Shown here: positions 1 through 43,217 of the stretch, one piece after another
Layout: each line of letters opens with the position of its first letter
Position numbering within the stretch: position 1 is the stretch's first letter
IMG/VR virus record: IMGVR_UViG_3300032245_001860
Location: 62,001-126,000 of that record
Reading direction: 5' to 3' (one strand)
Origin: a virus
DNA length: 64,000 nucleotides
Program-made: the position numbers and the translations under genes
The notes under the pieces: model-generated
What the model saw: the letters and a program-made list of their open reading frames with translations, nothing else
Database searches by the model: none
What the model was told of the DNA's origin: nothing

Positions 1-626
1 AAAACATTTCTCCAAGCAGATGAAATAACTATAGTAGGATTTACTTCTTCAACTATTTGATTTAATAGTTTGATTTTATCTTTTTGAATATATTTTGAAA
101 GTTTGCCTTGATCAAAATCTTCTGGATGTTTCATTATATGTAAATGCGGATCTGTATTTAAAACTCCATCACAATCCAAGAATAACATTTTTGTTTGAGA
201 TGCATAAAGTTTAGAAACAGCTTCTAAAATATGTTTTTTGCCATCCCATAAAATTTCAGGAAGATCATTTACATCAAACCATTTTAAAGCTTCACAATCA
301 CTATCAGCTACTGGCTCTTTGTCATCTTTGTATTTGTAAGCATAAATATCGCAAAATCTTCCGTCTGATTCTGATTTGAACGATTTTTCAATTGTGTGTA
401 GTTTTTTCTTTTTAAGCTTAAGATGAGTTTCTTCTTTGATTTCTCTGACAGCTGCTGATTCTGATGACTCTCCTGATTCTATTTTTCCACCAGGTATTGC
501 ATATTTTGTTGAAGTTTTTTGCTCTAATAAAACTTCAACTTTGTCATCTTCTTTTCTAAATACAATAACACAAGCTACTGATTTGCTGTCACTCATTGTT
601 CCACTTTGAGCTATTTTGTACCACAT
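1..626 (-). CDS. NUDIX hydrolase fused to HAD-type phosphatase, partial at window edge
   Basis: At least 208 residues are visible and the 3' end lies outside the window. The start is an ATG giving MWYKIAQ. This N-terminal tag recurs on other proteins here. Residues about 16-125 carry a Nudix box with the pattern Gx5Ex7REIxEE, in which the usual final Gly is His. Residues about 155-208 carry HAD motif I (LDCDGVL) and motif II (ISSAW). Nudix enzymes cleave nucleoside diphosphate-X compounds and HAD enzymes remove phosphates. The pair could act on modified nucleotides, NAD-type compounds or RNA ends, but the substrate is not visible. It is divergent from the Fic gene. Confidence 0.8.
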   Translation of the reverse strand, partial: MWYKIAQSGTMSDSKSVACVIVFRKEDDKVEVLLEQKTSTKYAIPGGKIESGESSESAAVREIKEETHLKLKKKKLHTIEKSFKSESDGRFCDIYAYKYKDDKEPVADSDCEALKWFDVNDLPEILWDGKKHILEAVSKLYASQTKMLFLDCDGVLNTDPHLHIMKHPEDFDQGKLSKYIQKDKIKLLNQIVEEVNPTIVISSAWRNV

Positions 627-696
627 GCTAATTTTATTCTGCCTTACTTGCTTTTTTTCTTGTTATTGTGTATTATCTAATTTGAGGTGATATAAA

Positions 697-1305
697 ATGT
701 TTGTACCAGAAAGCAGATCCTGGAAAGAATTGTTTGTTTATGAAAGCAATTTGATAGATCCACAACCAGGCTATATAGGAAACTCTCCTGGTTGTCCGAT
801 GTTTGAAAATCACATGAATGCTATTAATTTTTGCCTAAGTAATGGCTGGGAGTTAAATGAAAATACTCCACTTGACATACATAGATTTTTAACTCGTGGC
901 ATACCTTTTTTTGAAGATCATAATTCATCAGGTAAATATAGAACAGTGGATGTTTGGATTGGCCATGATTTATGTCCTAATCCTATTTTAATTCCTAATC
1001 TTATGAATCAATGGTTTAAGATTACCAATAAAATGATGAATAGTTTTATTAACAAATGTGGCAATGAATCAGAAGCTCGTAAAATAGCTTGGATTTCGCA
1101 TCATATTTTTGAAACCATACATCCTTTTATAGATGGGAATGGAAGAACTGGTAGGCTTTTATTGGCCAAAATTTTACATGATTTAGGTCATGATCCAATT
1201 GTTGTAAGATTTGATGATAGATTTGAATATTATGATGCTATTCAAAGTTTTAGAGATCAATATTGGACTGGCAAGCAATTCATAATTACTGACTTCGAAA
1301 TGTAA
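697..1305 (+). CDS. Fic domain protein (probable AMP transferase)
   Basis: This 202-aa protein has the complete Fic signature HPFIDGNGRTGR at about residues 142-153, with the catalytic His, the acidic/Asn anion-binding loop and the second Arg. An upstream SGKYR...WIG segment at about 79-89 is typical of the fold. Fic proteins transfer AMP, or other phosphate-containing groups, to hydroxyls of target proteins. No clear inhibitory (S/T)xxxE(G/N) helix is obvious, so it may be constitutively active or have a separate inhibitor. A good Shine-Dalgarno (GAGGTG) precedes the ATG. It is a single-gene unit ending in a strong terminator, which suits an accessory host-modifying effector. Confidence 0.9.
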   Translation: MFVPESRSWKELFVYESNLIDPQPGYIGNSPGCPMFENHMNAINFCLSNGWELNENTPLDIHRFLTRGIPFFEDHNSSGKYRTVDVWIGHDLCPNPILIPNLMNQWFKITNKMMNSFINKCGNESEARKIAWISHHIFETIHPFIDGNGRTGRLLLAKILHDLGHDPIVVRFDDRFEYYDAIQSFRDQYWTGKQFIITDFEM

Positions 1306-1332
1306 AAAACCGGGGTTTTTCCCCGGTTTTTT
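1304..1332. terminator. bidirectional intrinsic terminator
   Basis: A 12-bp perfect stem (AAAAAACCGGGG with its complement) and a 5-nt T loop lie between two convergent genes. A-runs and T-runs flank both sides, so it can end transcription in both directions. Confidence 0.93.
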
Positions 1333-2407
1333 ATAAGATTCTTACTGGTCCTGAAGATAAGTTGCTTGATGGTGTGCTTGGTGAAGAAATATTTTCATTT
1401 TCATTTTTTTCACCACCTGTAAAATCTTTTACTTTATCTTTGACAAATTTACCAGCTGTTCCAATTTTTTCTTCAATAGCTTGTACTAAATTTTCAAGCA
1501 TACCCTTGTCTTTATTGTCAAGATTCATTTTTTCAATTTCTTTTAATAGTTCAGAAGATTTTTCCACAAGTGTATTTGCAAGATTAATATCTATTTGCTC
1601 TAATGCATCTGACATTTTAGATATTTTATAAGATAAATCTTTTGATTGGAGATAAGCTTTTCCAGTGTTAGAAATATTTCTATACCAAAGATCTTCAGCG
1701 CCTTTTGTAAGTACATTTCCAGCCCCACCAGTTAGACTTCCAACTAATGCTCCAATTGGTCCACCTATAACACCACCAGCTGCACCCCCTGCTAAAGCAC
1801 CAGTAAAAAACTCTCTTAAGTAACCCGGCATTTCTTCTTCAATATTTCCTCTTATTGCCAGTTTTTGAGTTTTTGCATTGTAAACTTTTCTGAAATTAAT
1901 ATTACAAGCAGTTTTTACTGTTTCTTTGCCTTCATCAAACTTTTTCATTCCTTCTTTTGCCAATTCTTTAATTTGATCTGTAAGTTGAGAAACTGTTGGT
2001 GATGGTATTAATTTATTAATTACAACAAGAATTTTATCTAAATCAGTTTTATTTGATTGATAGACTTTATATGGGCCCTGTGAAGATTCAAAGAAATCTA
2101 AGGCATAATTTGCACCCATATCAACAAGCCAACCTACTCCGAAACCCTTAAGAGCAGACCCAGGATTAACTTTCACTTTGGTGGGAAATTTCTTAACCAA
2201 TTCTTCTGTTAATTTTTTGCCCCCAGCTAATTCCAAAGCTCTGTCTGCAGCTTCATCGCCAACTATTCTTTCTCCAGTTTCAATTTGAGCAGGAGTTTGA
2301 GCAAGCTTTATGTATTCTTTATTTAATAAATAAGCTTCAAGGTGATATTCTTGTGCATCCAAGTCATCAATAAGTTTTGCTAATTTTATAAGTTGTTCGT
2401 TTTTCAT
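1331..2407 (-). CDS. probable virion/membrane-active protein with glycine-zipper segment
   Basis: The function of this 358-aa protein is not recognised. Residues 1-37 form a helical leader (IKLAKLIDDLDA...) ending in IKLAQ, matching the leaders of three other proteins here. Residues about 200-232 are a Gly/Ala-rich hydrophobic stretch (GGAAGGVIGGPIGALVG), a glycine-zipper pattern seen in membrane-inserting or pore-forming proteins. The tail is Ser/Pro-rich. It lies 3 nt downstream of a gene with a similar plan, so the two are probably cotranscribed. A role as an ejected internal head protein that contacts membrane is inference. Confidence 0.6.
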   Translation of the reverse strand: MKNEQLIKLAKLIDDLDAQEYHLEAYLLNKEYIKLAQTPAQIETGERIVGDEAADRALELAGGKKLTEELVKKFPTKVKVNPGSALKGFGVGWLVDMGANYALDFFESSQGPYKVYQSNKTDLDKILVVINKLIPSPTVSQLTDQIKELAKEGMKKFDEGKETVKTACNINFRKVYNAKTQKLAIRGNIEEEMPGYLREFFTGALAGGAAGGVIGGPIGALVGSLTGGAGNVLTKGAEDLWYRNISNTGKAYLQSKDLSYKISKMSDALEQIDINLANTLVEKSSELLKEIEKMNLDNKDKGMLENLVQAIEEKIGTAGKFVKDKVKDFTGGEKNENENISSPSTPSSNLSSGPVRIL

Positions 2408-2410
2408 ATC

Positions 2411-3661
2411 TTAAAACATCTGAATGAATTTATTTATTATAGTAGTTTGATCATTAATTGGAACATTGTCTGCTTGCAATTTGTGTTTCAATTCACTTAA
2501 TGATTTATTATAGTTTTTAGTTCTTGTGTAAAGTGAATATCCATAACCCAAATACATCTTGATATCTGTAGGTTTATTTATTGTTTGTACTGGCGCTTTA
2601 CTTGACATTTGATCTGAAGTTTGTTTAGATAAATTTGTTGGCTTAGACTTTGGCTTCAATAATGATTTTTGTAACTCTTTCTTAAGTGCTCCAACAAATT
2701 GCATAAACTGCATATATTTAAATTGATTTTCAGAACTTGTAGGATTTCTCAACCAGACATATTTTTTAGTAAGGTTAGGATTATTCAATATTTCTCTATT
2801 TGAGATAAATTTATTTTGTTGCATGATTGGCTGCAAATCATTTATGGCTTTTTTTACATCGGGATCTGCAGATGCTAATAACTGATCTATATTTGCTGAT
2901 AATGAATAGTCATTCTCAGCAATTTGTGTCTTGAAATCATCTTTTTCACCAGTATATCTCAGATAAGAATCAATGCCTTGTCTCCCAAGAGAAGACAAAC
3001 TTGCTGTTGCATATAATGCACCACCAATGCCTTTAGTGATAGGAAGAGGAATAGAAACTAAAACAGCTGCAATTGCAAGTAAACAAACTTCTATAAACTT
3101 AGCTCTTTCTTCTGCATCATTCCAAATTTGATTAAACTTACCAGCAGATATCAAGTCTATATATTTTGCAATATCTTTTCTTGACTGATAGAGATTAATT
3201 ACAATTCCCAGCAAAGGTAAGAATTTTACAAATCTTGCAAGTCCTGGAATTTTTGTAGCAATTTTTGCTAAGAATCCCTCAGCTTCTGCAGCTTTGGGAC
3301 TTTTTTTAGCAATATCAGCAAAAGTCTTTAATTTTGAAAGATGTTCACGAGCATCTGCTGCACTTCCAGCTGCATCCAATACATCAAATCCTGCGAATGC
3401 TCCTGCTTCTATAGCACCTTTTGCTCCTGATGATAGATTACTTTTTTGCAGATAATTAAAAGGCATTTTGATAGCATTGCCAATTGCTGTTTCTGCAATA
3501 TCATCATTCTGAATCCATTTTTGATTACTTAGTCCCAAACCATTATTTGCTGCAAATCTTTTGTTGACTAATTTCTCATAGAAATCAGCTTGTTCATAAA
3601 ATCCGTAGGAATCACACAATTCCGCATAGGATATACAATTTTGGGCAGAAAGTCTAATCAT
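2411..3661 (-). CDS. hypothetical protein with helical leader and hydrophobic segments
   Basis: This 416-aa protein is not recognised. The N-terminus (AELCDSYGFYEQADFYEK...KRFA) matches the helical leader of neighbouring gene products. Hydrophobic stretches occur at about residues 145-165 (FLPLLGIVINLY) and about 190-225, with a Gly/Ala-rich run, so membrane interaction is possible. The C-terminal half is Lys/Ser/Gln-rich. It is the first gene of a two-gene minus-strand unit with the glycine-zipper gene. The shared plan suggests both are virion components, but no family was recognised. Confidence 0.55.
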   Translation of the reverse strand: MIRLSAQNCISYAELCDSYGFYEQADFYEKLVNKRFAANNGLGLSNQKWIQNDDIAETAIGNAIKMPFNYLQKSNLSSGAKGAIEAGAFAGFDVLDAAGSAADAREHLSKLKTFADIAKKSPKAAEAEGFLAKIATKIPGLARFVKFLPLLGIVINLYQSRKDIAKYIDLISAGKFNQIWNDAEERAKFIEVCLLAIAAVLVSIPLPITKGIGGALYATASLSSLGRQGIDSYLRYTGEKDDFKTQIAENDYSLSANIDQLLASADPDVKKAINDLQPIMQQNKFISNREILNNPNLTKKYVWLRNPTSSENQFKYMQFMQFVGALKKELQKSLLKPKSKPTNLSKQTSDQMSSKAPVQTINKPTDIKMYLGYGYSLYTRTKNYNKSLSELKHKLQADNVPINDQTTIINKFIQMF

Positions 3662-3704: not shown

Positions 3705-4166
3705 ATGACACAAAGAGATGCATACGAGTTGTTTTTTCCTTTGATAGAAAATTCAGGAAAAACATTTCACAAATCTTCATTAGTTTATGCAGAATTGGCT
3801 AAGGGTGGAGAGTTTATTGAAACTTGGACTAATGATGGACTGGAAACAACTAATTATGCAAACGCTGGAGATTTTATTGTCCAAAATCTACAAACAGAAA
3901 ATCTCGAAAAATATGTTGTGCCACCTGATATGTTTAAGTCAAGGTATAAGTTTTTTTACTGGCACGATAATGGAGCTATCTGTATACCTTTAGGGAAAGT
4001 TAGAGCTATACAATATATTGGTGAAGATACACAGTTCATTGCTAAATGGGGCAGATTGATGATTTTAAAGACTGGTGATTTTATTGTATCTCCAGCGCCA
4101 GATTTTCAAGAAGTATATAGAATAGCAAGAAAAGAATTTTTTGAAACTTATGAGGAAGATTTGTAA
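3705..4166 (+). CDS. hypothetical protein
   Basis: This 153-aa protein is not recognised. ATG 3705 is preferred over an in-frame TTG at 3687 because it gives a natural N-terminus (MTQRDAYELF). The product has mixed alpha/beta character with many aromatic residues and no Cys cluster or nucleotide-binding motif. Its stop overlaps the start of the HExxH protein by one base (TAATG), so the two are translationally coupled and may act together. Confidence 0.6.
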   Translation: MTQRDAYELFFPLIENSGKTFHKSSLVYAELAKGGEFIETWTNDGLETTNYANAGDFIVQNLQTENLEKYVVPPDMFKSRYKFFYWHDNGAICIPLGKVRAIQYIGEDTQFIAKWGRLMILKTGDFIVSPAPDFQEVYRIARKEFFETYEEDL

Positions 4167-5254
4167 TGTGGTACAAAACAGCTAAATATGGCTATATTGA
4201 TGTCCAAAAATATTTTGAAGAACAATTAGGATATGAATTAAATTTCAAAATTGAAGATTATTTAGAATATATAATAAAAAAATCTTCCAAAATTGTTCAT
4301 GGTATGATGCGCATTGATTTTGATAAATTGAATAATGAACTTCAAAATTCTCCTCTTAATTTCTTAATCAAAAGATTCGGATCTATGGAAGAATTGACTG
4401 AAGGTAATAGAGAAGGTATTGGTGCTTGGATACCATCTATGAAATATTTACTTCTAATACCTCAATTTCCAGCACAAGTTTTATTTAAAATTGTTGATGT
4501 AGCTATGCACGAACTTGCACATGCTCTGGATAAAAGAGCAGGAAAATACCCAGATGATAAATATTTTCTTATACATTTCAAAGCATTAGCTCCAATTATC
4601 ACACAGTATATGACACAGTTTTATAATGATAAAAAACAATTACTTTCAAGAGAACAAGTTTGGGATATTTTTCTAAATCTTATTGTGAAAGATATGAATA
4701 TTCCAGACGACAACAAACCTTTAAGAGAATTCCAAAGGACATTTACTGAATCTCTATGGTCGCAGAAAAAAGATGAGATATTGGATCATATTTTTGCTAT
4801 CGTAAGTAATAATCTAACTGACGATGATTCAATGGAAGAATTTTTACTCAGAGAATATTATAACTTGCCTGTAGAAGCACCAGCACAATTAAACTCATTG
4901 TATAGAGAATCATTGCCTCAGAGATTATTAGAATCTGCATTTCTTGCATATATCTCACATATATATTCTCCAAACCTAATACAAAAACTCAATCTTGATC
5001 CTAATGAAAGAAACCCTGAAGTAATTTTCAAAAAATTACAAGAAATGATTCCTGGTTTTGTGAATGCTGAAATGAAAGAAGATTTTATCAACTACATAAG
5101 GATAGAAATTTTTGATGATGTTGATAATTCTAATATATTAATTGATGGAAAAAATTTCTTGAAATCAATTAGAAAGAAACACATAAGAAGACAAGCTTAT
5201 AAAATCTTAAATGAAAATTTTGCAGAGTTTAAAAAATTAGTAGAAGCTTTGTAA
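4166..5254 (+). CDS. putative zinc metallopeptidase with MWYK leader
   Basis: This 362-aa protein begins MWYKTAKYG, the same tag as the NUDIX-HAD and 42.7-kb proteins. Residues 115-119 are HELAH, the HExxH zinc-binding and catalytic motif, followed by ALDKRAG, as in many zincin peptidases. The third zinc ligand cannot be assigned by eye. The remainder is helical, with no signal peptide. A peptidase carrying a possible packaging tag could act during head maturation, infection or cell-wall passage; this is inference. It is coupled by a 1-nt overlap to the upstream gene. Confidence 0.65.
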   Translation: MWYKTAKYGYIDVQKYFEEQLGYELNFKIEDYLEYIIKKSSKIVHGMMRIDFDKLNNELQNSPLNFLIKRFGSMEELTEGNREGIGAWIPSMKYLLLIPQFPAQVLFKIVDVAMHELAHALDKRAGKYPDDKYFLIHFKALAPIITQYMTQFYNDKKQLLSREQVWDIFLNLIVKDMNIPDDNKPLREFQRTFTESLWSQKKDEILDHIFAIVSNNLTDDDSMEEFLLREYYNLPVEAPAQLNSLYRESLPQRLLESAFLAYISHIYSPNLIQKLNLDPNERNPEVIFKKLQEMIPGFVNAEMKEDFINYIRIEIFDDVDNSNILIDGKNFLKSIRKKHIRRQAYKILNENFAEFKKLVEAL

Positions 5255-8263: not shown

Positions 8264-9616
8264 TTATTCGTTGATAGCTCTTACGAATGCAAGCTCTAAT
8301 CTTGTAAGTTTATTATCATATATAGCTGCAGTAGATTGTTTCATGTTTGGTCTCAATCTATTGAATGTTTCAGATATTAATCTGAAATCAGTATTGAAGG
8401 AGTTCTTGAATAAATTTTTATCTGGCAAAGTTGCTTTTCTTTCTAAGTCTGAAATTAATAAATCTAATTCTGCTACATTGCCAGTTCTTTCACTCGGAAA
8501 CTCACTTAATGGAGCGTCAGTAGTAGTTGCAGTTGATGGCTGAGAAGTAGGCCCAGAAGTTGTTTCAGCTGCAGGTGGGTTAGTTGCAGTCTGGATAGCC
8601 ATATTTCTTGCATCTTCTATTTTTTTATCCAAAAGTTTTTTAAGCTTTTGTTTCTTTGCTGCAGAATATCTTGTCGCATCAATTGCAGCTTTAAATTCTG
8701 CTATTCTTGAAGGATCATCACCTATAAATTTATATCCAGCAAGATTTTGTTCAGGGCGTAAACTTTTATGAACATCAGAATCTGTAACAGTTGAATCCAT
8801 GCTCTTGAGTTTAGTAAAAACAATTTTTGCTAAGGCTTCATTGATAGGAGTACCAGGCATGACAGATCTTGTTGGAGGAGTACGTGCTGGAGTAGAGCTT
8901 GCAGAACCTCCTGGATATGTACCTGCTGAACCAATTGCAGCAGCAGCAGCAGCAGCAGGAGAAGCTGGAGAAGGAAGCGCAGGTGCTCCACCTCTGGGTC
9001 TTCTTGCTGTAATAGCAACAGGTGTATTAGCTATACCACCAGGTGTAAAATTAGGATTAGCTTTTTTTGTGATTTCAACTTCAGCTTCTCTCAAATAATA
9101 AATATAATTATAATATTTTGTATTGCCTACATATATTTGAGCTTGAGATTGAGACCAGTCCAAGAAGTTTCCTTGGGCATCAACATTAGAAGCCCGTGCA
9201 AGAGCTGTCATTATTGCTGGTGTTGTACCTGTAGGCGGAGTATATGCAGTGCTCCCTCTGCCAAGCATTCTTTTTGCTACAACTAAAAGCTCTTTTTTAG
9301 CTTCTTTTAATTTATTAGCAAACCCAGTAAAACCAACACCTGCAGCATAAGCGAGATATGAGTTTAAAGCCTTGAAACTTTCATCAATATATTCTTCACG
9401 ATCTTTGAATTTTGTGAGAGATATCATTGATCTATCGAGTGTTCTTCGGAATGAATTTCCAAATCCACCACCAGGTTCTTGCCCTTGCAAAGAAACATCT
9501 CTTTGAGGTTCATCTGCAGCAGTTTTCACCATATTTTTTTCAGTGACATCTGCTGCAGAATATGCTCCAATAGAGTCAAGATGCTTAGCTAATTTAATAT
9601 ACTCGTCAGTATTCAT
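8264..9616 (-). CDS. probable virion protein with helical leader and Ala/Pro-rich linker
   Basis: 450 aa, not recognised. The leader (YIKLAKHLDSIGAYSAADVTEK, ending VKTAAD) matches other proteins here. An Ala/Pro/Ser/Thr-rich low-complexity region spans about residues 205-250, including a seven-Ala run encoded by a GCT/GCA-type trinucleotide repeat, and a second lies near 345-375. Such linkers join folded domains in structural proteins. The C-terminal 75 residues look helical. It has its own terminator. A packaged internal or head protein is the most likely role, by inference from the leader. Confidence 0.55.
   Translation of the reverse strand: MNTDEYIKLAKHLDSIGAYSAADVTEKNMVKTAADEPQRDVSLQGQEPGGGFGNSFRRTLDRSMISLTKFKDREEYIDESFKALNSYLAYAAGVGFTGFANKLKEAKKELLVVAKRMLGRGSTAYTPPTGTTPAIMTALARASNVDAQGNFLDWSQSQAQIYVGNTKYYNYIYYLREAEVEITKKANPNFTPGGIANTPVAITARRPRGGAPALPSPASPAAAAAAAIGSAGTYPGGSASSTPARTPPTRSVMPGTPINEALAKIVFTKLKSMDSTVTDSDVHKSLRPEQNLAGYKFIGDDPSRIAEFKAAIDATRYSAAKKQKLKKLLDKKIEDARNMAIQTATNPPAAETTSGPTSQPSTATTTDAPLSEFPSERTGNVAELDLLISDLERKATLPDKNLFKNSFNTDFRLISETFNRLRPNMKQSTAAIYDNKLTRLELAFVRAINE
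8936..8961. repeat. GCA trinucleotide repeat
   Basis: About eight GCA units form a microsatellite inside the 450-aa gene, coding for an alanine run on the minus strand. It may vary in length between isolates. Confidence 0.8.
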
Positions 9617-12570: not shown

Positions 12571-13607
12571 TATGATAACTTTCCTCTTGCATAGTCTAAA
12601 AGTGGTTGCAATTCAGGCGTATTTGAATTGTGTAAATAATTAGTCAAGATTGTATTCAAACTTGCTATTGACGATGGACTTAAATTATTTATGTAATATG
12701 CCCATCTTGCAGGGGTTATTCCAGCTCCTAATCTTGCAAAAGCAGTGAATGAAATATTTATTGTATTAGTTGACATATTTGCATCAATTTTTCTTGTGTA
12801 ATTAGATTTTATAGATGCTTGCCCTAATTCTAAATATCTATCACCCACCAATAATGAACAGTTGCCCTCAACAGGAATAGAATCATAAGAATCATGTCTT
12901 GCAAATATTTCAAAGCTTCCTGTCAAGTTGTGTGTTTGTGGAGAGAAAAATGGGTATTGATATCCAGTATTTGCTATGTATACTTCTGAATAACCAACAT
13001 TGATATTTATTGTTCCGTTTTTAATATAATATTCATTGCCGTCAATATAAAATCTGACATCGTAATTTTTAGCAGTTCTTGCAATGAAATCTTCACCACT
13101 ATTATTTGTAACTGGCAAATCTATAGTGAATTTGGTGTCGTAACTACAATTATAACCTAAAGTACATGAAACATTACTTCCAATTGTTATTTGAGCAGAA
13201 GTAAGTAAATTTTTATTAGCTATTGTCAATCCAAGTTGCGCAAGAATATATTGAAGCCATTCTAAATTGTCAACATTGTAAATATCTTCTACTGGATAGA
13301 AAAAGAAATTTAACAGCAAATAATAATCATCAATTAATAAATCAAATACATCTTTATATGTAACTGTTGTAGTTTCAAGATCCTTAATTATTAAAGCATC
13401 ACCATTAACTGTAATTTTATCTTTTCTGCCAAGCTGATCTATAACTAATGTTCCAGCCTCACCTTGAATTAAGTCTTTAGGAGATATAGATAAGTCAGAA
13501 TTGTTGGTTACACTATTTGCAAGTATATAAGATGTACCAGAAACATTAGTAAGTGCTGTTTTTAGAAAATACCAAGACCCGATATATCTTGAGTCTATAA
13601 TGGCCAT
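12570..13607 (-). CDS. probable tail/baseplate protein, paralogue
   Basis: 345 aa, beta-rich, with the duplicated scaffold shared with the downstream 293-aa protein and a longer C-terminal region. Three tail-like genes (863, 345 and 293 aa) are chained by 1-nt stop/start overlaps, so they are expressed together. Side-by-side paralogues may form a hetero-oligomeric ring or successive tail layers. No enzymatic motif is visible. Confidence 0.6.
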   Translation of the reverse strand: MAIIDSRYIGSWYFLKTALTNVSGTSYILANSVTNNSDLSISPKDLIQGEAGTLVIDQLGRKDKITVNGDALIIKDLETTTVTYKDVFDLLIDDYYLLLNFFFYPVEDIYNVDNLEWLQYILAQLGLTIANKNLLTSAQITIGSNVSCTLGYNCSYDTKFTIDLPVTNNSGEDFIARTAKNYDVRFYIDGNEYYIKNGTININVGYSEVYIANTGYQYPFFSPQTHNLTGSFEIFARHDSYDSIPVEGNCSLLVGDRYLELGQASIKSNYTRKIDANMSTNTINISFTAFARLGAGITPARWAYYINNLSPSSIASLNTILTNYLHNSNTPELQPLLDYARGKLS

Positions 13608-16198
13608 TATTCTACTCCAGAGCCACGTTCTTGAATCTGAGACAACATTTCAGGACTTATATTTACAATCAATCCTCTAAGTTCAGCAAAAGATGGTCTG
13701 ATTTTTCCATTTTCAATTAATTTTTTGAGCTCTTCCAAATCATTAATTTTTCTTCCAATTTTTCCCGAAGATAATGTTTGGTCTACATGTTGTTTAAACT
13801 CATAAAGAGGTGATGAATATAAATTTTTGATTTCATTTCTTATATCTTCAAGTTTTTTTCTTGTAACTTCATCACCCTTAACAGCCAATTGTTGAGATAA
13901 AAATGTTTCTCTTTCTCTAAGCTGATTAAACCTGGTTTGATGATTCCACATAGCTTGCCTATTGAATCCATTATTGTAGAAACCTGGTTCAGCGCCATTA
14001 TCTTTTGAGACAAAATCTGTTTTAGCTTGAACTAAACCCTCTGACAATTTGATATTAACAATAGCACAATCAACTAATTTGATACATCTATTTACATGAT
14101 CATCAAAATATTCTTTGATTGCATCGATATCAGTTATTCTTTTCAACTCTGTGGTTGGTGTGCAGTTTGCTTCGATCATCTTCATAGCCTTGCAGCCAAC
14201 ATTCTCTCTGCATTCTGTGGATTTGTAGATGATGTTTGCAGCGTCAAGTTTTCTCATTAGATTAGAAGGATAGTCTAAATCAGTGTCGTCCAAAGACAAA
14301 GATCTGGTTCCAAGCATGTCAGCAATGATGTCAGTAGTGAACATCTTCCATTCAGTCTTGAGTTTATAAAATTCATATTCTCTACAAGGTCCTATAGGTG
14401 CACAAATATATCTTGCTGGACCACCTTTTGCTTTTGGATATTCATAAATTGGAAGAGTTCCAGAAGGTCTCACCCATGGTCTGCCTTTATCTTGGATTTT
14501 CTTTTCCATGGTTAAGCGAATACCAAAATATTCACCAATAAACATCACTCTACGTTCAATAATAGGTTTTCTAATTATTGTGCTTTGAACTTCTCCATTT
14601 TCATCTGGCTCTGATAATGTTTCTTCTTCTTCAAAACCAACTAAAACATCACAAGGAAGCAAAAAGTCAATTTCAAATCTATCTGTTGAAGTTGGATTAT
14701 CTACAGGACAAGGTATTTTAACTGGAAAAGGTATAGGATCTAAATTGTAAAGTTCTCTTAATACTTTACACATATTCATTTCTTCATTAGAAAGAAATTT
14801 CAAATCAAATTCTTTGTATCTTGTGTCCTCAGGTTTTTCATATGCCTTACCAAGAATTTCTGCCACTGCTGGACACCCTGCGTCTCTTAAATCTTTTCTA
14901 AATGCAGCCAATTTAGTGGATGGGTCAAAAACATCAGCAGTAGATCCAACTACCACTAATTGCTTGTAATAATATCTTATTTTAGTACCATAACTATCAT
15001 TTGCATCTCTTGTAAGTACAGGAGTTTCTTCAATAGTTTCTACTTCTTGTTGCTTATCTAATTCAATCTGCTCTCTGGTTCTTTTCTGTCTTCTTGGACC
15101 TTTTTTTATCTTAATCCCTAAGACATCAAAAATTCTTTCATTATCATAACCATTTTCAATACATTCTTTTAATTTTGATAATGCATAAATTCTTTTATCT
15201 TGATCAGTTTCAAGTTTTCTGCCATTTTCATCAGTGTCAGGATAGAAATAATAGAAGATATCATCCTTGGTAGCTCTTTCAAGTGTAGATGGTTTTTCAG
15301 TTGGCAATCCAGGATCTGAAACTTTTCTTCTTCTTAAATCCTGCGGAACATCAATAATGTCATATTCAGGAAATGATCTTAATATCAAAGCAAGATTCCA
15401 TTGTATTCTTAAATTTTCAGGAATCAAAGCTGCCCATTCTTCTCTGTTTTCAATATCAGGATGGATTTCAAGAATTCTATTCCAAATTCTATTTTTAGAA
15501 TTGAGCATCATCACTTTTGTTTCAAGTGCTGAAATTGCTTGTTTAATTTCTTGTGATTGTACTGGATTCAATACAATTTTATCATTTTGTGCTATTTCTT
15601 GTTCTGAGTTTTGTAATATGAAAATCATTTGTTCCATAGTGAAATCAGGATTAAATAATTTTGCTGCAGTGAAAATTTCATTCCACCAATTTTTAACTTC
15701 TAATTTTCTTTTTAAAACTTCAATAGAAATGAAATTTCTAATAGCCGTAATTTCTTCTGGGTTTTTATATTCTAATAAAGGAGCGACAAGTTCTGGAGAC
15801 CTTGCTTCAACTCTGTGTAATTTGATGAGTTGAGGAATGAATACAGTACCAGCTCTTTGTAGTAACTTATCTATTATGCTATTTACAACAGCATCAGTAG
15901 GAAGAGTTGATCCTTCAGCTCTGATCAGATCACCAGCTAATTTTCTGAGGTTAACAATTGCGCCTCTATAACTTTCAAGAAAAGCAAAATCTTTATCAAC
16001 TTCTATTTGTTTATCAGCAAGCAATTTGTAAACTGTTTGTTCTGATATTTGGCCCTTTGCAAATTGTTCACCAATTTTTTCATCAAGCTGTTTTGAAATA
16101 TATGCTACTTTTTCTTCTAAAGTATTGCCAGGAATTTCATTGGGCTTGGTTTTAGGATTGATATCAACAGCTAATTTGATTTTCTTATAGTTAAACAT
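13607..16198 (-). CDS. 863-aa probable virion protein with possible nuclease-like core
   Basis: Not recognised as a whole. It begins MFNYKKIKLAVD, a variant of the K-x-A leader. Residues 20-400 are helical with Arg/Lys-rich segments (RRQKRTREQ near 370). Around residues 490-580 a RFEIDFLLP segment is followed later by MFIGEYFG and conserved-looking basic residues, which resembles a PD-(D/E)XK or Vsr-like layout, but this is tentative. Cysteines cluster near 660-690 (CRENVGCKAMKMIEANC). It heads a five-gene minus-strand run including duplicated tail proteins and RusA. Confidence 0.5.
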   Translation of the reverse strand: MFNYKKIKLAVDINPKTKPNEIPGNTLEEKVAYISKQLDEKIGEQFAKGQISEQTVYKLLADKQIEVDKDFAFLESYRGAIVNLRKLAGDLIRAEGSTLPTDAVVNSIIDKLLQRAGTVFIPQLIKLHRVEARSPELVAPLLEYKNPEEITAIRNFISIEVLKRKLEVKNWWNEIFTAAKLFNPDFTMEQMIFILQNSEQEIAQNDKIVLNPVQSQEIKQAISALETKVMMLNSKNRIWNRILEIHPDIENREEWAALIPENLRIQWNLALILRSFPEYDIIDVPQDLRRRKVSDPGLPTEKPSTLERATKDDIFYYFYPDTDENGRKLETDQDKRIYALSKLKECIENGYDNERIFDVLGIKIKKGPRRQKRTREQIELDKQQEVETIEETPVLTRDANDSYGTKIRYYYKQLVVVGSTADVFDPSTKLAAFRKDLRDAGCPAVAEILGKAYEKPEDTRYKEFDLKFLSNEEMNMCKVLRELYNLDPIPFPVKIPCPVDNPTSTDRFEIDFLLPCDVLVGFEEEETLSEPDENGEVQSTIIRKPIIERRVMFIGEYFGIRLTMEKKIQDKGRPWVRPSGTLPIYEYPKAKGGPARYICAPIGPCREYEFYKLKTEWKMFTTDIIADMLGTRSLSLDDTDLDYPSNLMRKLDAANIIYKSTECRENVGCKAMKMIEANCTPTTELKRITDIDAIKEYFDDHVNRCIKLVDCAIVNIKLSEGLVQAKTDFVSKDNGAEPGFYNNGFNRQAMWNHQTRFNQLRERETFLSQQLAVKGDEVTRKKLEDIRNEIKNLYSSPLYEFKQHVDQTLSSGKIGRKINDLEELKKLIENGKIRPSFAELRGLIVNISPEMLSQIQERGSGVE

Positions 16199-33524: not shown

Positions 33525-33531
33525 CATATCA

Positions 33532-33561: not shown

Positions 33562-33572
33562 AGGAGAAGATA

Positions 33573-34823: not shown

Positions 34824-34827
34824 TTTA

Positions 34828-34842: not shown

Positions 34843-35598
34843 ATGGAAAATAAAGAAATATCTTTCCAACAATTCATAAGAAATCTCAATGAAAATACTC
34901 ATGCTCAAAAGTATTTTAAGTCAAGAGGTTTATCAAAGAATATTGTCAAAGAAGGATTGGTAGGTTTTTGTCCTACTTACTCAAGATATTCTTTTCCTTT
35001 ATTGAGAGGAAGGTTGATAGTTCCCATAAGAGATGTATATGGGAAAACTATTGCTCTCGCTGGCAGACAAATACCAGATATTAAGGATGACTTAATAACT
35101 TCTTTTTGGGAATCTTTTGGAAGCGAACCATCAAAATGTCAAGATCGTATTTCGAAATGGTCAAAAGGCAAATGGATTAATGAACCTTATGTTAAGGCTA
35201 AAAATTTGTTTTTTCTTGATCAGTCTAAAAAATATGTACGAGAGAAAAATTACATTATCTTAGTTGAAGGATATTTTGATGTTTATTCACTTTATGACAA
35301 TGGGATTAAGAATGTTGCAGCTATATGCGGAACATCTATTTCTGAATATCAAATTGCATTAGCTTCAAGGTTTTGCGATAATATTGTTACTCTTATGGAT
35401 TCAGATTTTGCTGGAAAAACTGCAGCTAACAAAATTGTTTCCAAGGTAGAAGATTTAGGTTTAAAAGCTTTTAAGGTTTATTTACCTGTTGGAATGGATC
35501 CAGATGATTTTGCTAAGAATTATGACACTTCATTTTTAAATGAATCTATTAGCAACATGATAGCAGATTCAAAAAAAGAACTATATATTGGGATTTAA
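34843..35598 (+). CDS. DnaG-type primase catalytic (TOPRIM) domain, stand-alone
   Basis: 251 aa. The N-terminal part has the YFKSRGLS and GRLIVPIRD motifs of the DnaG core. The TOPRIM part has E142 in LVEGYFDVYSL and D186/D188 in LMDSDFAG, plus GTSIS. No zinc domain (it is in the 26.8-kb gene) and no helicase-binding C-terminal domain are present. It makes RNA primers, presumably together with the separate zinc-domain protein. A leaderless promoter precedes it and recJ follows 1 nt after its stop. Confidence 0.88.
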   Translation: MENKEISFQQFIRNLNENTHAQKYFKSRGLSKNIVKEGLVGFCPTYSRYSFPLLRGRLIVPIRDVYGKTIALAGRQIPDIKDDLITSFWESFGSEPSKCQDRISKWSKGKWINEPYVKAKNLFFLDQSKKYVREKNYIILVEGYFDVYSLYDNGIKNVAAICGTSISEYQIALASRFCDNIVTLMDSDFAGKTAANKIVSKVEDLGLKAFKVYLPVGMDPDDFAKNYDTSFLNESISNMIADSKKELYIGI

Positions 35599-35599
35599 T

Positions 35600-37393: not shown

Positions 37394-37422
37394 TTTACAT
37401 ATTTTTAAATTTTACACATAAT
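37394..37422 (+). promoter_or_regulatory. sigma70-like promoter
   Basis: TTTACA, a 17-nt spacer and CATAAT precede a leader of about 20 nt with CTGGAG and a GTG start at 37448. The segment after the -10 (ACTTACAT) resembles the one at 43249. Confidence 0.65.
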
Positions 37423-37447
37423 ACTTACATCCTCTGGAGTAAGCATT

Positions 37448-38416
37448 GTGAATAATGATTTAAAGATTGCTAACAGTAAAGTACAAGAAAGTTTAGAAGC
37501 TGCAATATTAAGGTATCAAAAAAGCTTATTATCGAATAATAAGAATTTAATTGATAAGTATTACAAAGAGATTTGTAAACTTTATCCACCATATCTACAC
37601 ATGCAAGAATGGTGGAATCAATATCATTATTTATATGATTCACAAGAAGACTTTGCTTCAGATTACATTAAGATATTTTGCAATGTTTTATCAAATTGGA
37701 AACCCAGATCCACACGTAAAAAATCAAGATATGGTGGGTCTGGAGAATTCAAAAACTATTTTATTGGCGCATTGCAGCATAACTATATTAATTTAGTTAA
37801 GGCTGATAATGCTGGTAAAAGAAATCCATCTCAAAAATGTCCAATATGTGAAAAATGGGTAAATCCTTTGTCCACCCATGTTTTACATCATCATACAAAT
37901 TTATTATGGGACTATCTAAAATTGCAAGGATACATTTTAGAAGTATTAGAAAAATGCCCATTCTGTAAATCTCACAAAATGCCCAGAACTTTTACTTGTG
38001 ATGAAAAATGTGAAAATCAAGTTGAAAATGGTTGCGAAAAATGCATAATAGATAAGAGGACATTAGCTATCAAGAAACATCTTTTATCAAAACATTCATC
38101 AATGCTTTTTCAAAGATTTAATGAATTGTATCCAAATCATCAAACAGTATCGCCAAGAGCTTTGAGTGTATATTTGTCAGAAGAAGATGATTCCGATGAA
38201 AATTGCTATTATGACCAAATAAAGGACGAAAGTAAAATTGACAGCTTTCTTGAAGTTGAAATGTCTGATTTGGAAAATAGAATAATTCAAAATGCACTCA
38301 ATGGATCTTCAAGTGTAAAATTTGACGCAAAGCTTTATAATTGCTCAATGGAAGAGTTCAATGGAGCTCTTGAAAGCATAAAGAATAAGATGTCCCTTTT
38401 TGGGTTGGAAGGATAA
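37448..38416 (+). CDS. divergent sigma-factor-like protein with zinc-binding insertion
   Basis: 322 aa, GTG start. Residues about 60-118 follow the sigma region 2 plan: an acidic SQEDFASDYIKIF helix, then GGSGEFKNYFIGALQHNYINLVK. Instead of the usual linker, residues about 124-215 hold five Cys/His pairs (CPIC, CPFC, CDEKC, CEKC and HVLHHH/KKHLLSKH), probably binding zinc. Residues about 268-315 (LENRIIQNALNG...CSMEEFNGALESIKNKM) resemble region 4. It may direct host RNA polymerase to phage promoters. The sigma assignment is pattern-based. Confidence 0.55.
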   Translation: MNNDLKIANSKVQESLEAAILRYQKSLLSNNKNLIDKYYKEICKLYPPYLHMQEWWNQYHYLYDSQEDFASDYIKIFCNVLSNWKPRSTRKKSRYGGSGEFKNYFIGALQHNYINLVKADNAGKRNPSQKCPICEKWVNPLSTHVLHHHTNLLWDYLKLQGYILEVLEKCPFCKSHKMPRTFTCDEKCENQVENGCEKCIIDKRTLAIKKHLLSKHSSMLFQRFNELYPNHQTVSPRALSVYLSEEDDSDENCYYDQIKDESKIDSFLEVEMSDLENRIIQNALNGSSSVKFDAKLYNCSMEEFNGALESIKNKMSLFGLEG

Positions 38417-38418
38417 TT

Positions 38419-38805
38419 ATGATCGAAAATTTAGACGAACCAAGTATTGTTGCTGAAAAAGAACCTAAAGCAAGAGTCAAGAATGACCCAAGAATTCTTA
38501 AAGCCAGAGGAGGAGATCCAAATGACCCTGATGAAAACAGAAGGCCTACAGATCCAGTTGGCCTTTCAAGAAGTATTTTACATGTCCTAAAGGATCATGA
38601 ATATGTAAGAGTTTTGTCAGTTGGACCAACCGCTTTAGCCTCAGTTATGTCAGCTTTCAGGTTGGCTTCAAGAGAAATTGAATCACTTACAAATGGCTCT
38701 GTTTTAGTATGCAGACAGTCAGAATACAGTGCAGAAATTGGTGGTAAGAAGGCAAAGGGAGTTTCAACTCGTATCTTTGCTATTGATATTAAATACGCTT
38801 TGTAA
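38419..38805 (+). CDS. SpoVS-like (Alba-superfamily) protein
   Basis: 128 aa. After a 45-residue disordered, charged N-terminus (PKARVKNDPRILKARGGDP), residues about 48-128 match the SpoVS plan: VGLSRSILHVLKDHEYVRVLSVG, an Ala-rich helix (TALASVMSAFRLAS), then a hydrophobic strand (VLVCRQ) and an ending I-x-A-I-D-I strand. SpoVS is a small nucleic-acid-binding-type protein known from Bacillus sporulation. It sits 2 nt after the sigma-like gene, suggesting a joint role in gene expression. Confidence 0.65.
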   Translation: MIENLDEPSIVAEKEPKARVKNDPRILKARGGDPNDPDENRRPTDPVGLSRSILHVLKDHEYVRVLSVGPTALASVMSAFRLASREIESLTNGSVLVCRQSEYSAEIGGKKAKGVSTRIFAIDIKYAL

Positions 38806-38809
38806 AACT

Positions 38810-39256
38810 ATGGAAAAGAATGCTTGGATCAGTAAGAAAAAGGAACTACTTTCTAAAATTTTTGTTTCTAAAACTGCTGAAAAAAAGTTAGATTGGGGGT
38901 TTTTATCTCAGGAAACCCCTAATGAAAAACAGAATAAGTATAGTGTCAAAATTGATAGCTGGACAGACTTAATGTACGCAAGTTCAGATATCAATCCTAC
39001 AGTTGAACCTACTTCATTTAACATACATCCTTGTGGTTTTATAGTGAATGATGAATTAGGTCAAGCAGTATTGAATAAGGCGTTTGATAAAGCTGTATTT
39101 TATATAAATCAGCAAACTGATACAGATGAAGATATAGTCAAGGACGCAATTCATGATTATATTTCTAATAACAAATTAAGCACCAAAGGTTTTTATTATT
39201 TGATTAAGAAACTCAAGAATTTGCAACTCGAAGACTTGCCAGACTTACAAGCATAA
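38810..39256 (+). CDS. hypothetical protein
   Basis: 148 aa from ATG 38810; the frame extends upstream only over the SpoVS-like gene. Not recognised. It has a basic N-terminus (KKKELLSKIF) and an acidic C-terminal half with helices. It ends in front of a strong terminator, closing the sigma/SpoVS transcript. Confidence 0.55.
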   Translation: MEKNAWISKKKELLSKIFVSKTAEKKLDWGFLSQETPNEKQNKYSVKIDSWTDLMYASSDINPTVEPTSFNIHPCGFIVNDELGQAVLNKAFDKAVFYINQQTDTDEDIVKDAIHDYISNNKLSTKGFYYLIKKLKNLQLEDLPDLQA

Positions 39257-39279
39257 CGCATAATAACAAAGGAAAGGAT

Positions 39280-39315
39280 AAAAAATATCTGATAGATTTC
39301 TTTCAGGTATTTTTT
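39280..39315. terminator. intrinsic terminator before nrdB
   Basis: A 13-bp stem (AAAAAATATCTGA with its complement, one G-T pair) and a 10-nt loop end in a T-run. Confidence 0.88.
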
Positions 39316-39328
39316 ATTGTCAAAAAAT

Positions 39329-40285
39329 ATGGAAAAGATACTCGAAGAGAATAAGAATAGGTTTGTTTTGTTCCCGCTACAGCACCACGATATATGGGAT
39401 TATTATAAGAAAGCACAGCAAGTTTTCTGGACAGCTGAGGAAATTGACCTACAACAAGATCTCACTGACTGGGAAAAATTGAATGAGGGTGAGAAGCATT
39501 TTGTCAAGCATGTTTTGGCATTCTTCGCTGCTTCTGATGGAATTGTAAATGAGAACTTAGCAGAAAACTTTGTTGCTGAAGTACAGTACACAGAAGCTAA
39601 ATTCTTCTATGGTTTTCAGATCATGATGGAGAATATTCACTCCGAGACATATTCCCTTCTTATTGACACATATATCAAAGACAAAGAAGAGCAAAATCAT
39701 CTCTTCAACGCTATTGATACAGTTCCAGCAGTCCAAAAGAAAGCAGAATGGGCACTTAAGTGGATTGGTTCTGAATCATTTGTTGAAAGATTAATTGCCT
39801 TTGCTGCTGTTGAGGGAATTTTCTTCTCTGGTTCTTTCTGTAGTATTTTCTGGCTCAAGAAGCGTGGTTTGATGCCAGGTCTCTCCTTCTCGAATGAATT
39901 AATTTCCCGTGATGAGGGTCTTCATACAGACTTTGCTGTTCATCTATACAACAATCATATTGAAAATAAATTATCAAGAGAAAGATTGATTGAGATTATT
40001 GATTCAGCACTTGTAATTGAAAAAGAGTTTATTACCGAAGCTCTTCCTGTATCTTTGATCGGCATGAATTCTAATTTAATGAAGCAATATCTTGAATATG
40101 TTTCTGATAGACTTTTGATGGATCTTGGCGTTGGCAAGGTGTATAATGCCGAGAACCCATTTGACTTTATGCAGAATATTGCTATGGCTAATAAAACCAA
40201 TTTCTTTGAAAAGAGAGTAGCTGATTATGTCAAGAGTGGTGTTGGTGAAGTGAAAGAACAAATCTCATTTGACGAGGATTTTTAA
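39329..40285 (+). CDS. nrdB: ribonucleotide reductase small subunit, eukaryote-like class Ia
   Basis: 318 aa from ATG 39329 (TTG 39317 is an alternative). It matches the eukaryotic R2 type: [20 protein letters not shown] with iron ligands and the radical Tyr in the FYGFQ segment, then [14 protein letters not shown] and [12 protein letters not shown] with the remaining ligands. The C-terminal peptide FDEDF resembles the R1-docking tail. It builds the tyrosyl radical for dNTP synthesis. It is followed 2 nt later by nrdA. Confidence 0.93.
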
Positions 40286-40287: not shown

Positions 40288-42720
40288 ATGGATATTTTAA
40301 AGCGTAATGGATTTAAAGAACCACTTAAGCTTGAAAAGATTGGTTCCAGAATCAAAAAACTTACTTATGGCTTACATGATATGGTTGACCCTGATCTTGT
40401 CAGTACAAAGGTTGTTTCTGGCCTGTATGATGGTGTTTCAAGCACCGAACTTGATCAGTTAAGTGCTGAGACTGCTGCTTCTATGATCACCACTCATCCT
40501 GATTATGGTAAGTTGGCTGCTCGTATTGCTATCACAGCTTTATATAAGGACGTTGCAAAAGATTTTTCTGGAATTGCAACTAAACTATATGAATACATCA
40601 ATCCTAAGACTGGCGAAAAAGCTGGGATGATTTCAGATGAAGTCTATTCTGTAATTCAAAAGCATGCAGATGAATTGGATGCCATGATTGTGCATGATCG
40701 TGATTTCAATTTTGATTATTTTGGATTCATGACTCTTAAGAAATCATATCTTTTGAAGGTCAATGGCCAAGCAGCAGAAACTCCTCAACATCTTTATATG
40801 AGAGTAGCTGTTGGAATCTGGCGTGAAAATTTAGAGATGGTTCAAAAGACTTACGATATGTTGTCTCAGGGTCTTTTTACACACGCTACTCCAACACTTT
40901 TTAACGCTGGTACAAATCGCCCTCAGTTATCCTCTTGTTTCTTGCTTGATATTGATGATGATTCTATTCCAGGTATTTACAAGACTCTTTCTGATTGTGC
41001 GAAAATTTCACAATCAGCTGGTGGGATTGGCATAAACATTCATAAGATTCGTGCTAAAGGTTCTTATATTAAGGGAACCAATGGATATTCCAATGGCATT
41101 ATCCCTATGCTTCGTGTCTTTAATGAAACTGCCAGATATGTAGATCAAGGCGGTGGTAAGCGTAAGGGTTCAATTGCTGTTTACCTTGAGCCTTGGCATG
41201 GTGACGTTTATGACTTCTTAGATCTTCGTAAAAACCAAGGCAAAGAAGAAATGAGAGCAAGAGATTTATTCTTAGCCTTATGGATTCCTGACTTATTCAT
41301 GCAAAGAGTTGAAGAAAATGGAAACTGGTCATTATTTTCACCTGAACAAGTTCCAGGGTTGATTGATGCATACGATTCCCCTGACAACAAAGCGTTTACA
41401 GCTCTATATGAAAGATATGAAGCTGAAGGAAAAGCACTTAAAGTTGTCAAGGCTCGTGAATTATGGGAAAAGATTCTTGATTCACAAATTGAAACTGGCA
41501 CACCTTACATGCTTTACAAGGACTCATGTAATTATAAGTCAAATCAAAAGAATCTTGGAACTATCAAGTCTTCAAATCTCTGTACTGAAATAATTGAATA
41601 TACAGACAAAAATGAGACTGCCGTGTGTAACCTTGCTTCTATCGCTTTACCGAAATATGTATCAATTCCATCAGGTAAAGTCAGAGAGAAGGATAAGAAG
41701 CTACGCAAGTTTGATTTTAAGAGCTTGTATGAAGTCACTTACCAAGCTACTGTAAACTTGAATCAAGTCATTGATATCAATTATTATCCAACTGCAGAAA
41801 CATCAGTATCTAATTTTAAGCATCGCCCAATTGGTTTAGGTGTTCAAGGATTAGCTGATACTTTTGCTATTATGGGTCTCCCTTTTGATAGTGAAGAAGC
41901 TCGAAAACTGAATAAGGATATTTTTGAAACTATCTACTTTGCAGCATTGACAGCATCAAAGGATTTGGCAAAAACCCATGGGTCTTATTCGTCTTTTGAA
42001 GGATCTCCAGCATCTCAAGGCTCATTACAATATGACCTATGGGGACTTACTGAGAATGATCTTTCCGGTATGTGGGATTTTGCAGCACTTAAAGAAGAAA
42101 TTAAGCAATTTGGTTTAAGAAATTCTTTATTAGTTGCTCCAATGCCCACTGCTTCTACTGCACAAATTCTTGGAAACAATGAATGTTTTGAGCCTTTCAC
42201 AGCAAACATTTACAAGAGAAACACTTTGAGTGGTGAGTATGCAATTATCAACAAGCATTTAGTTGAAGATCTTGTCAATCTTGGTATTTGGAGTGACAAT
42301 ATCAGAATGAAGCTTATTATTGATAATGGGTCAGTTCAAGGAATTGATGAAATTCCAGCTGACATCAAAGAAGTTTATAAGACAGTTTGGGAAATCAAGG
42401 GTAAGTCTATTCTTGAAATGGCAAGAGATCGCAATTATTTTATTGATCAATCTCAGTCTTTGAATATGTTTATGGCTGAACCAACTGTATCTAAGCTTTC
42501 TTCTGCTCACTTCTATGGATGGAAGATTGGTTTGAAGACAGGCATGTACTATCTTCGCACTAAACCAAAGGCGCAAGCTTTGAAGGGCTTAGGAATTGAT
42601 GTATCTTCAATTCAACAAGTAGAAAAGAAGCCCGAAATTGAAATAAAACCTATGGAAGAAGAACCAGATATTCCACAATGTAGACTTGATAATCCAGATT
42701 GTGAAGCTTGCGGATCATAA
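40288..42720 (+). CDS. nrdA: ribonucleotide reductase large subunit, eukaryote-like class Ia
   Basis: 810 aa, close in length to eukaryotic R1. An N-terminal ATP cone (MDILKRNGFKEPLKLEKI) allows dATP control. Active-site segments LSSCFLLDIDDDSI, NLCTEI and APMPTASTAQILGNNE are intact, and the C-terminal CEACGS carries the redox cysteine pair. It reduces ribonucleoside diphosphates with NrdB. The near-identity of many blocks to eukaryotic R1 is notable for a phage gene. Confidence 0.95.
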   Translation: MDILKRNGFKEPLKLEKIGSRIKKLTYGLHDMVDPDLVSTKVVSGLYDGVSSTELDQLSAETAASMITTHPDYGKLAARIAITALYKDVAKDFSGIATKLYEYINPKTGEKAGMISDEVYSVIQKHADELDAMIVHDRDFNFDYFGFMTLKKSYLLKVNGQAAETPQHLYMRVAVGIWRENLEMVQKTYDMLSQGLFTHATPTLFNAGTNRPQLSSCFLLDIDDDSIPGIYKTLSDCAKISQSAGGIGINIHKIRAKGSYIKGTNGYSNGIIPMLRVFNETARYVDQGGGKRKGSIAVYLEPWHGDVYDFLDLRKNQGKEEMRARDLFLALWIPDLFMQRVEENGNWSLFSPEQVPGLIDAYDSPDNKAFTALYERYEAEGKALKVVKARELWEKILDSQIETGTPYMLYKDSCNYKSNQKNLGTIKSSNLCTEIIEYTDKNETAVCNLASIALPKYVSIPSGKVREKDKKLRKFDFKSLYEVTYQATVNLNQVIDINYYPTAETSVSNFKHRPIGLGVQGLADTFAIMGLPFDSEEARKLNKDIFETIYFAALTASKDLAKTHGSYSSFEGSPASQGSLQYDLWGLTENDLSGMWDFAALKEEIKQFGLRNSLLVAPMPTASTAQILGNNECFEPFTANIYKRNTLSGEYAIINKHLVEDLVNLGIWSDNIRMKLIIDNGSVQGIDEIPADIKEVYKTVWEIKGKSILEMARDRNYFIDQSQSLNMFMAEPTVSKLSSAHFYGWKIGLKTGMYYLRTKPKAQALKGLGIDVSSIQQVEKKPEIEIKPMEEEPDIPQCRLDNPDCEACGS

Positions 42721-42748
42721 AAAAAGAGGGGAGAAATCCCCTCTTTTT
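42721..42748. terminator. bidirectional intrinsic terminator
   Basis: An 11-bp stem (AAAAAGAGGGG with its complement) and a 6-nt loop lie between convergent nrdA and the MWYK-tagged gene. Confidence 0.93.
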
Positions 42749-43217
42749 ACGTATTTGATAAACCTTTTCTAATCTCTCTTAATTTATTGGCTACAGCATC
42801 TTGAGTTGCATTTTCTAAAGTACCATTCATATCAAGTGGATCAACTTCAAAATGAAAATCTCTACCATTAATATGATTTCTCGCAATAGCTGTAATTTGT
42901 TCAGGTGTAGGAGGAGAATGTATATCAACGCTCCATTCTCCATAATTAGAAACTCTTATAGCTCCAGTCAAAGACATAAATGGAACAACATAATCAGAAT
43001 ATCTACTTCCTTGAGATTCTTCTGGTTCATCCATAACAGATTCAATATTTCTATGATCTAATGATCTTTCATATCCACCCTCAGAATAATCAAGAAATTT
43101 ACCAGAGCTTAAGACATATCCAGCTTTGACTGGATCATTTGTTTCACCATAAAACTCTAAAGCTTCTTTTTCTTTGGGATGAATGCCAAAATATGATTGA
43201 GCTAATTTGTACCACAT
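42747..43217 (-). CDS. MWYK-tagged hypothetical protein
   Basis: 156 aa, not recognised beyond the leader MWYKLAQSYFG, which is shared with the NUDIX-HAD and HExxH proteins. The remainder is soluble, with no transmembrane segment or Cys motif. It is a single-gene minus-strand unit inserted between nrdA and the dUTPase operon, which suits a mobile accessory cargo gene. Confidence 0.6.
   Translation of the reverse strand: MWYKLAQSYFGIHPKEKEALEFYGETNDPVKAGYVLSSGKFLDYSEGGYERSLDHRNIESVMDEPEESQGSRYSDYVVPFMSLTGAIRVSNYGEWSVDIHSPPTPEQITAIARNHINGRDFHFEVDPLDMNGTLENATQDAVANKLREIRKGLSNT

Follow-up and report, generated by a model that had tools for sequence, protein, structure and literature searches.

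The question raised by this locus is why proteins with unrelated bodies begin with almost the same seven residues. The window, i.e. the whole stretch of 64,000 nucleotides analysed here, corresponds to bases 62001 to 126000 of a virus record of 315,852 bases. An earlier note on this DNA had named five N-termini as possible members of one series, and all five were found where it had placed them (start codons at 626 -, 4166 +, 43217 -, 56160 - and 16198 -).

A heptapeptide at the start of unrelated proteins

Three of the five N-termini carry the heptapeptide itself:

Window 606..626, minus strand: MWYKIAQ tag of a NUDIX + HAD_SAK_2 protein
Window 1..626, minus strand: body of this tagged NUDIX-HAD protein, which continues beyond the window edge and has 300 aa in the complete record
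Window 4166..4186, plus strand: MWYKTAK tag
Window 4166..5254, plus strand: tagged 362-aa putative metallopeptidase, with HELAH at residues 115-119
Window 43197..43217, minus strand: MWYKLAQ tag
Window 42747..43217, minus strand: tagged 156-aa protein, function not assigned by matches

The gene calls of the record were a greedy ORF set made without a trained gene finder (331 ORFs). A genome-wide motif search returned nine ATG-initiated MWY[KR]x[AS] ORFs, more than the earlier note had listed; the NUDIX gene, cut in two by the window edge, is one of the nine. Besides the window start codons at 626 -, 4166 + and 43217 -, the record contains:

Record 45868 -, 47680 -, 56680 +, 147687 +, 240331 + and 242323 -: start codons of the other MWY[KR]x[AS] ORFs
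Record 130051, plus strand: variant start MWYRKVLAS, beside the portal gene
Record 290962, plus strand: variant start MSWYRLAQ

About 3% of the ORFs bear the tag. From composition, 0.0026 such starts were expected among the 331 ORFs as compared to the nine observed, while the same pattern inside proteins of the record was found once against 0.76 expected. The protein at 626 matched the Pfam families NUDIX (1e-16) and HAD_SAK_2 (1e-24). The HELAH protein at 4166 gave no Pfam match; a distant homolog in another record, starting MWYKFAAYGTIDLQKY, keeps the tag as MWYKFAA. The family of the 156-aa protein occurs in several related contigs and every fetched member is tagged, with M1, W2, Y3, A6 and Q7 invariant among seven homologs; no match to it was obtained in the cultured-phage collection.

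In viral contigs, MWY[KR][ILFM]AQ was present in 47 stretches and 49 of the 51 matches open ORFs of at least 50 aa, whereas the letter-permuted control MYW[KR][ILFM]AQ gave 4 stretches, none of them with an ORF longer than 27 aa. The pattern was present in 34 stretches from bacterial and archaeal genomes (257 Gb), mostly not at gene starts; eight matches open ORFs of at least 50 aa, several of those inside longer genes. In 26 tag-bearing records, 78 tags were counted as compared to no match for the reversed pattern. The codons for Tyr (TAT/TAC) and Lys/Arg (AAA/AAG/AGA/CGA) differ between families, several GCN codons are used, and the residues are kept. This synonymous variation points to selection on the peptide and not on the DNA. 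The objection, raised in the earlier note itself, that start context or codon bias might produce the motif therefore fails (9 vs 0.0026 at starts, 1 vs 0.76 internally, 4 stretches for the permuted control vs 47); chance, start context and codon bias are rejected by the permuted and reversed controls, the composition expectation, the bacterial genomes and the codon variation.

As read from these sequences, one heptapeptide precedes about 30 unrelated protein families in related contigs of a giant-phage clade distantly related to Bacillus phage G. That the bodies of the tagged proteins are otherwise unrelated, as had been noted before, was borne out, since the families gave no BLAST matches to each other; homology of the bodies was rejected on this ground. 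Residues 1-4 and 6 have a high information content and residues 5 and 7 a moderate one; the search patterns had preselected positions 2-4 and 6 and partly 5 and 7. At residues 8-16 it is no higher than the null, so that conservation ends at residue 7 and a common domain behind the tag was rejected as well. Residue 6, preselected as A or S, is Ala in 29 of 30 families, and Ser replaces it in tags such as MWYRISA. Position 4 allowed an unselected check: each of the nine MWY ORFs in the record's ORF set has K or R there, as do all 46 MWY starts found before the portal gene in independently fetched loci. Among cultured phages no carrier of the MWY tag was found, Bacillus phage G and Tunturi_5 being without it, and a literature search covering mainly openly accessible papers returned no report of an MWY tag or of a KxA prohead-protease motif.

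Head genes and the protease-scaffold polyprotein

The terminase gene lies within the window, and the portal, protease-scaffold and major capsid genes follow outside it (record 130575-140611):

Window 57776..59893, plus strand: terminase large subunit
Window 59917..60945, plus strand: 342-aa protein encoded immediately after the terminase, with MSSKNIKTAQ as a short KxA leader
Record 130575-132917: portal gene
Record 133072-137289: protease-scaffold protein, with an N-terminal head-maturation protease domain (phrog_18299, 3e-16)
Record 139757-140611: major capsid gene

The major capsid protein is 47% identical to gp27 of Bacillus phage G, and the major head protein of Tunturi_5 is a relative of it too. 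The C-terminal part of the portal protein holds a DUF559 / MTES_1575-type nuclease domain.

In 48 of the 49 contigs that include the portal gene together with its upstream DNA, the gene immediately before the portal encodes a protein with an M(S)WY start. A tagged protein is, on this reading of the contigs, a member of the head operon. In the portal-adjacent proteins the spacing from MWY[KR] to A[QS] varies, with A[QS] two or three residues further on in MWYKQVLAQ and MWYRIVKAS than in MWYRFAQ. Because of this shift, the sequences suggest that the tag is made of two elements, MWY[KR] and an Ala-containing end, and the targeting and cleavage elements may differ.

The protease-scaffold protein matches records annotated as prohead or capsid maturation protease, and in its protease domain His126, His174 and Ser177 are invariant in aligned homologs. 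Its tail of about 1,100 residues is read as a scaffold. A match to the protein is present in 13 of 16 tag-bearing records and covers most of it in 11; the other three records are shorter contigs (86-166 kb). A PDB profile search with the protease domain gave nothing credible. The structure models predicted for the protease domain (mean pLDDT 57) and the 156-aa tagged protein (mean pLDDT 64) were of low quality, and Foldseek found no match to either at E <= 0.001. The protease is fused to the tail in the tag clade; it stands alone in phage G (gp19, 300 aa) and in Tunturi_5 (gp331, 287 aa).

When all gapped residue pairs were counted in seven protease-scaffold tails, [KR]-x-A came out on top, with 167 occurrences as compared to 95 after local shuffling of the tails (z 8.7, a value inflated by the homology of the tails). 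The pairs A-S, A-Q and K..Q were also enriched. DNA-metabolism proteins showed no [KR]xA enrichment (54 vs 49 +/- 6). In an alignment of 12 homologs, [KR]xA is kept in all 12 at residues 304, 551, 970 and 1162 while the flanks drift, and in 11 at residues 1029 and 1327, the latter swapping Ala and Ser. Conserved sites amid drifting flanks would be the behaviour of protease sites, and they appear to carry the same motif as the tag end: by sequence comparison, the last four tag residues match the motif for which enrichment and conservation were seen in the protease-scaffold proteins of these phages. That the protease cuts at KxA, and between which residues, is our inference. The motif is so short that many single sites will be there by chance.

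KxA is also over-represented at N-termini of the record, where 39 of 207 ORFs carry it; internal windows gave 18.1 +/- 3.4. The protease and neighbouring head proteins of phage G and Tunturi_5 carry KxA sites and no MWY, and the KxA motif may therefore be older than the MWY tag.

Cargo and other leaders

Behind the tag we found, in addition to the NUDIX + HAD_SAK_2 pair of the window, NlpC/P60 and M23 peptidase domains, a P-loop kinase (AAA_33), a D-2-hydroxyacid dehydrogenase, a poly(A)-polymerase-type nucleotidyltransferase, ART-PolyVal (3e-12), InPase (1e-44), PcfJ (1e-12) and GNAT (3e-7); a SprT-like match was weak (0.009). Many tagged proteins gave no domain match, and those with a Pfam match are mostly single-domain, the NUDIX + HAD protein having two. 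Some of the cargo is not effector-like, such as the 2-hydroxyacid dehydrogenase and many proteins that have no assigned function.

ART-PolyVal, InPase, GNAT, NUDIX and metallopeptidase domains were described by Iyer et al. 2017 (PMC5512222) in polyvalent proteins, whose injection along with the phage DNA is predicted. The tagged cargo has domain kinds typical of this class, but here the domains are mostly separate proteins with a common tag instead of one multidomain polypeptide. The fused, polyvalent form is seen in two cultured phages, Tunturiibacter phage Tunturi_5 and Myxococcus phage Mx1, whose proteins are matched by the ART of the tagged family:

PP885688.1 261501-265589: Tunturi_5 gp321, 1362 aa, with SprT-like, Acb1/2'-5' RNA ligase-like, three ART-PolyVal and GNAT domains
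WNM70333.1: Mx1 protein, 1479 aa, with GNAT, ART and NUDIX domains

Both lie within structural gene clusters, and their content indicates that domains fused in some phages are separate but commonly tagged here. The annotation of gp321 is merely that of a MutT/NUDIX hydrolase.

The other two N-termini of the series had been thought to be related to the tag:

Window 53344..56160, minus strand: 938-aa protein, start MWNYKRS
Window 13607..16198, minus strand: 863-aa protein, start MFNYKKIKLAV

Judged by the starts of their homologs, this is plausible for the first and not for the second. Homologs of the MWNYKRS protein begin with MWYS[RK]IIESATAWDV or MWNFSIHKKTV, and because of the MWYS[RK]IIESA starts MWNYKRS is probably a degenerate, weaker variant of the tag. 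Homologs of the MFNYKKIKLA protein begin with MFNLKKYVLSADL, MFNFKNFKTAADL or MKFNLSKLKTAAK, i.e. with MFN[LF] and an end in LSA, LAA or TAA; by these starts MFNYKKIKLA is a different leader, with only the KxA-like end in common with the tag.

A further leader was detected in about 15 proteins of the record, which begin with a helical module of about 35 residues ending in KxA. This second leader, with the consensus LxKIAxxLDxxGxxxEADxLxxxIxKxA, is a two-helix module found on many unrelated proteins, and three giant ORFs bear it C-terminally (e.g. SIKLMVKVAQKLDLKKKYKLADKFTNILRKY):

Window 1331..2407, minus strand: 358-aa protein, second leader ending EYIKLAQ
Window 2411..3661, minus strand: 416-aa protein, second leader
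Window 8264..9616, minus strand: 450-aa protein, second leader ending MVKTAAD
Window 62170..62622, plus strand: 150-aa protein, weak second-leader match
Record 34141-37134, 37124-39853 and 40326-42563: second leader, C-terminal
Record 28879-33894, 42976-43938, 60138-61436, 239438-240331 and 301321-305702: second leader, other loci

As traced in this record, the second leader likely belongs to the same system as the tag. Its carriers include a glucosaminidase-domain protein, and in record 304170-305702 it is followed by an apparent Hint/intein domain. Tagged genes lie beside other leader genes in 4 of 10 cases, a clustering that is not significant (p = 0.08).

Two other loci of the window were noted by eye. 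The gene at window 49671-50666 (plus strand) is adenylosuccinate-synthetase-like, with a GDEGKGK motif, and is a possible PurZ-type gene for modified DNA bases. Window 44804-47319 (minus strand) holds three tandem paralogous, glycosyltransferase-like genes with similar N-termini (MVDxxxVV..GR.R).

A candidate packaging leader

The sequence evidence is best read as the earlier note had proposed, namely with the tagged enzymes as packaged and injected cargo. The near-constant portal neighbour (48 of 49) and the match to the scaffold KxA point in this direction, and so do the domain kinds of Iyer et al. and the fused counterparts in structural clusters of two cultured phages. We give a probability of roughly 70% to MWY[KR]-x-A-[Q/S/K] being a portable N-terminal capsid-targeting leader, probably a cleavable one. 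The links of the tag to the head, by portal neighbour and scaffold motif, are new. Cleavage of the tag at KxA is somewhat favoured by the shared motif. The scheme as a whole, in which MWY[KR]xA[QS] loads dozens of effectors into heads and is cut at K/R-x-A by the protease-scaffold protein, so that the injected set of a whole phage clade is readable from genomes, could equally well prove right or wrong.

Given the portal neighbour and the T4 precedent, the aromatic-basic start M-W-Y-K/R would bind the scaffold or protease core during prohead assembly and draw the tagged enzyme inside. The head-maturation protease would then cut at K/R-x-A, next to Ala, since tag and scaffold have this motif in common, freeing the mature enzyme as the scaffold degrades. 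The cargo kinds and the fused counterparts suggest that the enzymes would be ejected into the host with the DNA, where their targets may be host defences, RNA, signalling nucleotides or the cell wall. With the tag, many effectors could be loaded as single proteins, in contrast to some relatives, in which domains of this kind are joined in one large polypeptide.

The comparison with the leaders of T4 internal proteins, drawn in the earlier note, holds as an analogy; tag and T4 leaders differ in sequence, and the cut predicted here does not follow a Glu. Like the T4 capsid-targeting sequence (CTS) of IPI, IPII and IPIII, the tag is short, lies at the extreme N-terminus and is carried by otherwise unrelated proteins (PMC9026906, PMC3012670), and, as in T4, a head-maturation protease is encoded in the same genome. 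The CTS has about 10 residues and sits on defence or takeover proteins. In IPIII the first 10 residues suffice for targeting, and the residues for targeting and processing are separate (PMC9026906). In contrast to the T4 case, no sequence similarity between tag and CTS was recognised, the capsid protein of this lineage is closest to that of phage G, and packaging is here a prediction. The prohead proteases of T4, phiKZ-type phages and SPN3US cut after Glu (PMC9026906, PMC10052503), whereas the tag ends in K/R-x-A-[QSK] and not in Glu as gp21 sites of T4 do; for this reason we do not class it as a T4-type CTS and regard it as analogous, not homologous. The ejection proteins of SPN3US and phiKZ, which lie inside the head, carry N-terminal propeptides with several redundant sites each, cut by gp245/gp175 (PMC10052503, PMC9026906). 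The SPN3US propeptides have 20-254 residues and are cut after AXE, unlike the tag leader with its some seven residues and its KxA motif. Herpesvirus assemblin cuts at Ala-Ser, and its resemblance to the tag motif is taken as a lead only. As in assemblin, the protease is N-terminal on a scaffold polyprotein (PMC4498786), and phage prohead and herpes proteases have been reported as homologous (Cheng et al. 2004, as cited in PMC10052503).

It is conceivable, if unlikely, that the tag is solely a maturation (cleavage) signal, head entry depending on other contacts and the heptapeptide being trimmed with no role in targeting. The tag does contain the full [KR]xA[QS] motif of the scaffold sites, and other proteins of the record carry the N-terminal KxA excess described above with no MWY in front. 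However, all tags keep the W-Y pair, which the scaffold sites lack, and MWY[KR] is still there in proteins whose KxA part has moved or disappeared, which argues for a role of MWY in its own right.

Similarly doubtful is a docking function towards some other common partner, e.g. a host or phage membrane, a replication or RNA-processing complex or a phage compartment, with the capsid not involved. Short terminal peptides often mediate docking and several of the cargo enzymes could act late in infection, but no hydrophobic signal-like stretch was seen behind the tag, a tagged protein is fixed beside the portal, the end motif is common to the scaffold, and the cargo overlaps predicted injected effectors.

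A recombining 5' cassette of promoter, leader and first codons, spread by DNA exchange under little peptide constraint, would account for tags in front of unrelated genes and for the small groups in which tagged genes occur; it is very improbable, as the 15 bases upstream of tagged genes, compared by eye, are not shared between families, and the codons differ while the peptide is retained across divergent phages. Finally, a translation-start or mRNA-level effect, or chance, in place of a peptide signal fits the position of the copies found at start codons and is refuted at the sequence level by varying synonymous codons with kept residues, by the low share of tagged ORFs with permuted and reversed controls near zero, and by the end of conservation at residue 7, leaving it next to no probability.

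The injected proteins of giant phages are mostly unknown and hard to determine. If the tag is a packaging ticket, the injected effectors of this uncultured lineage, including proteins with no assigned function, could be listed from sequence alone, and the head protease would be predicted to have its specificity at Ala and not at Glu. If true, a very large capsid might be filled with enzymes of choice by means of the short tag. The system would also offer a comparative case of one function built in two ways, by fused effectors in some phages and by effectors with a common ticket in others.
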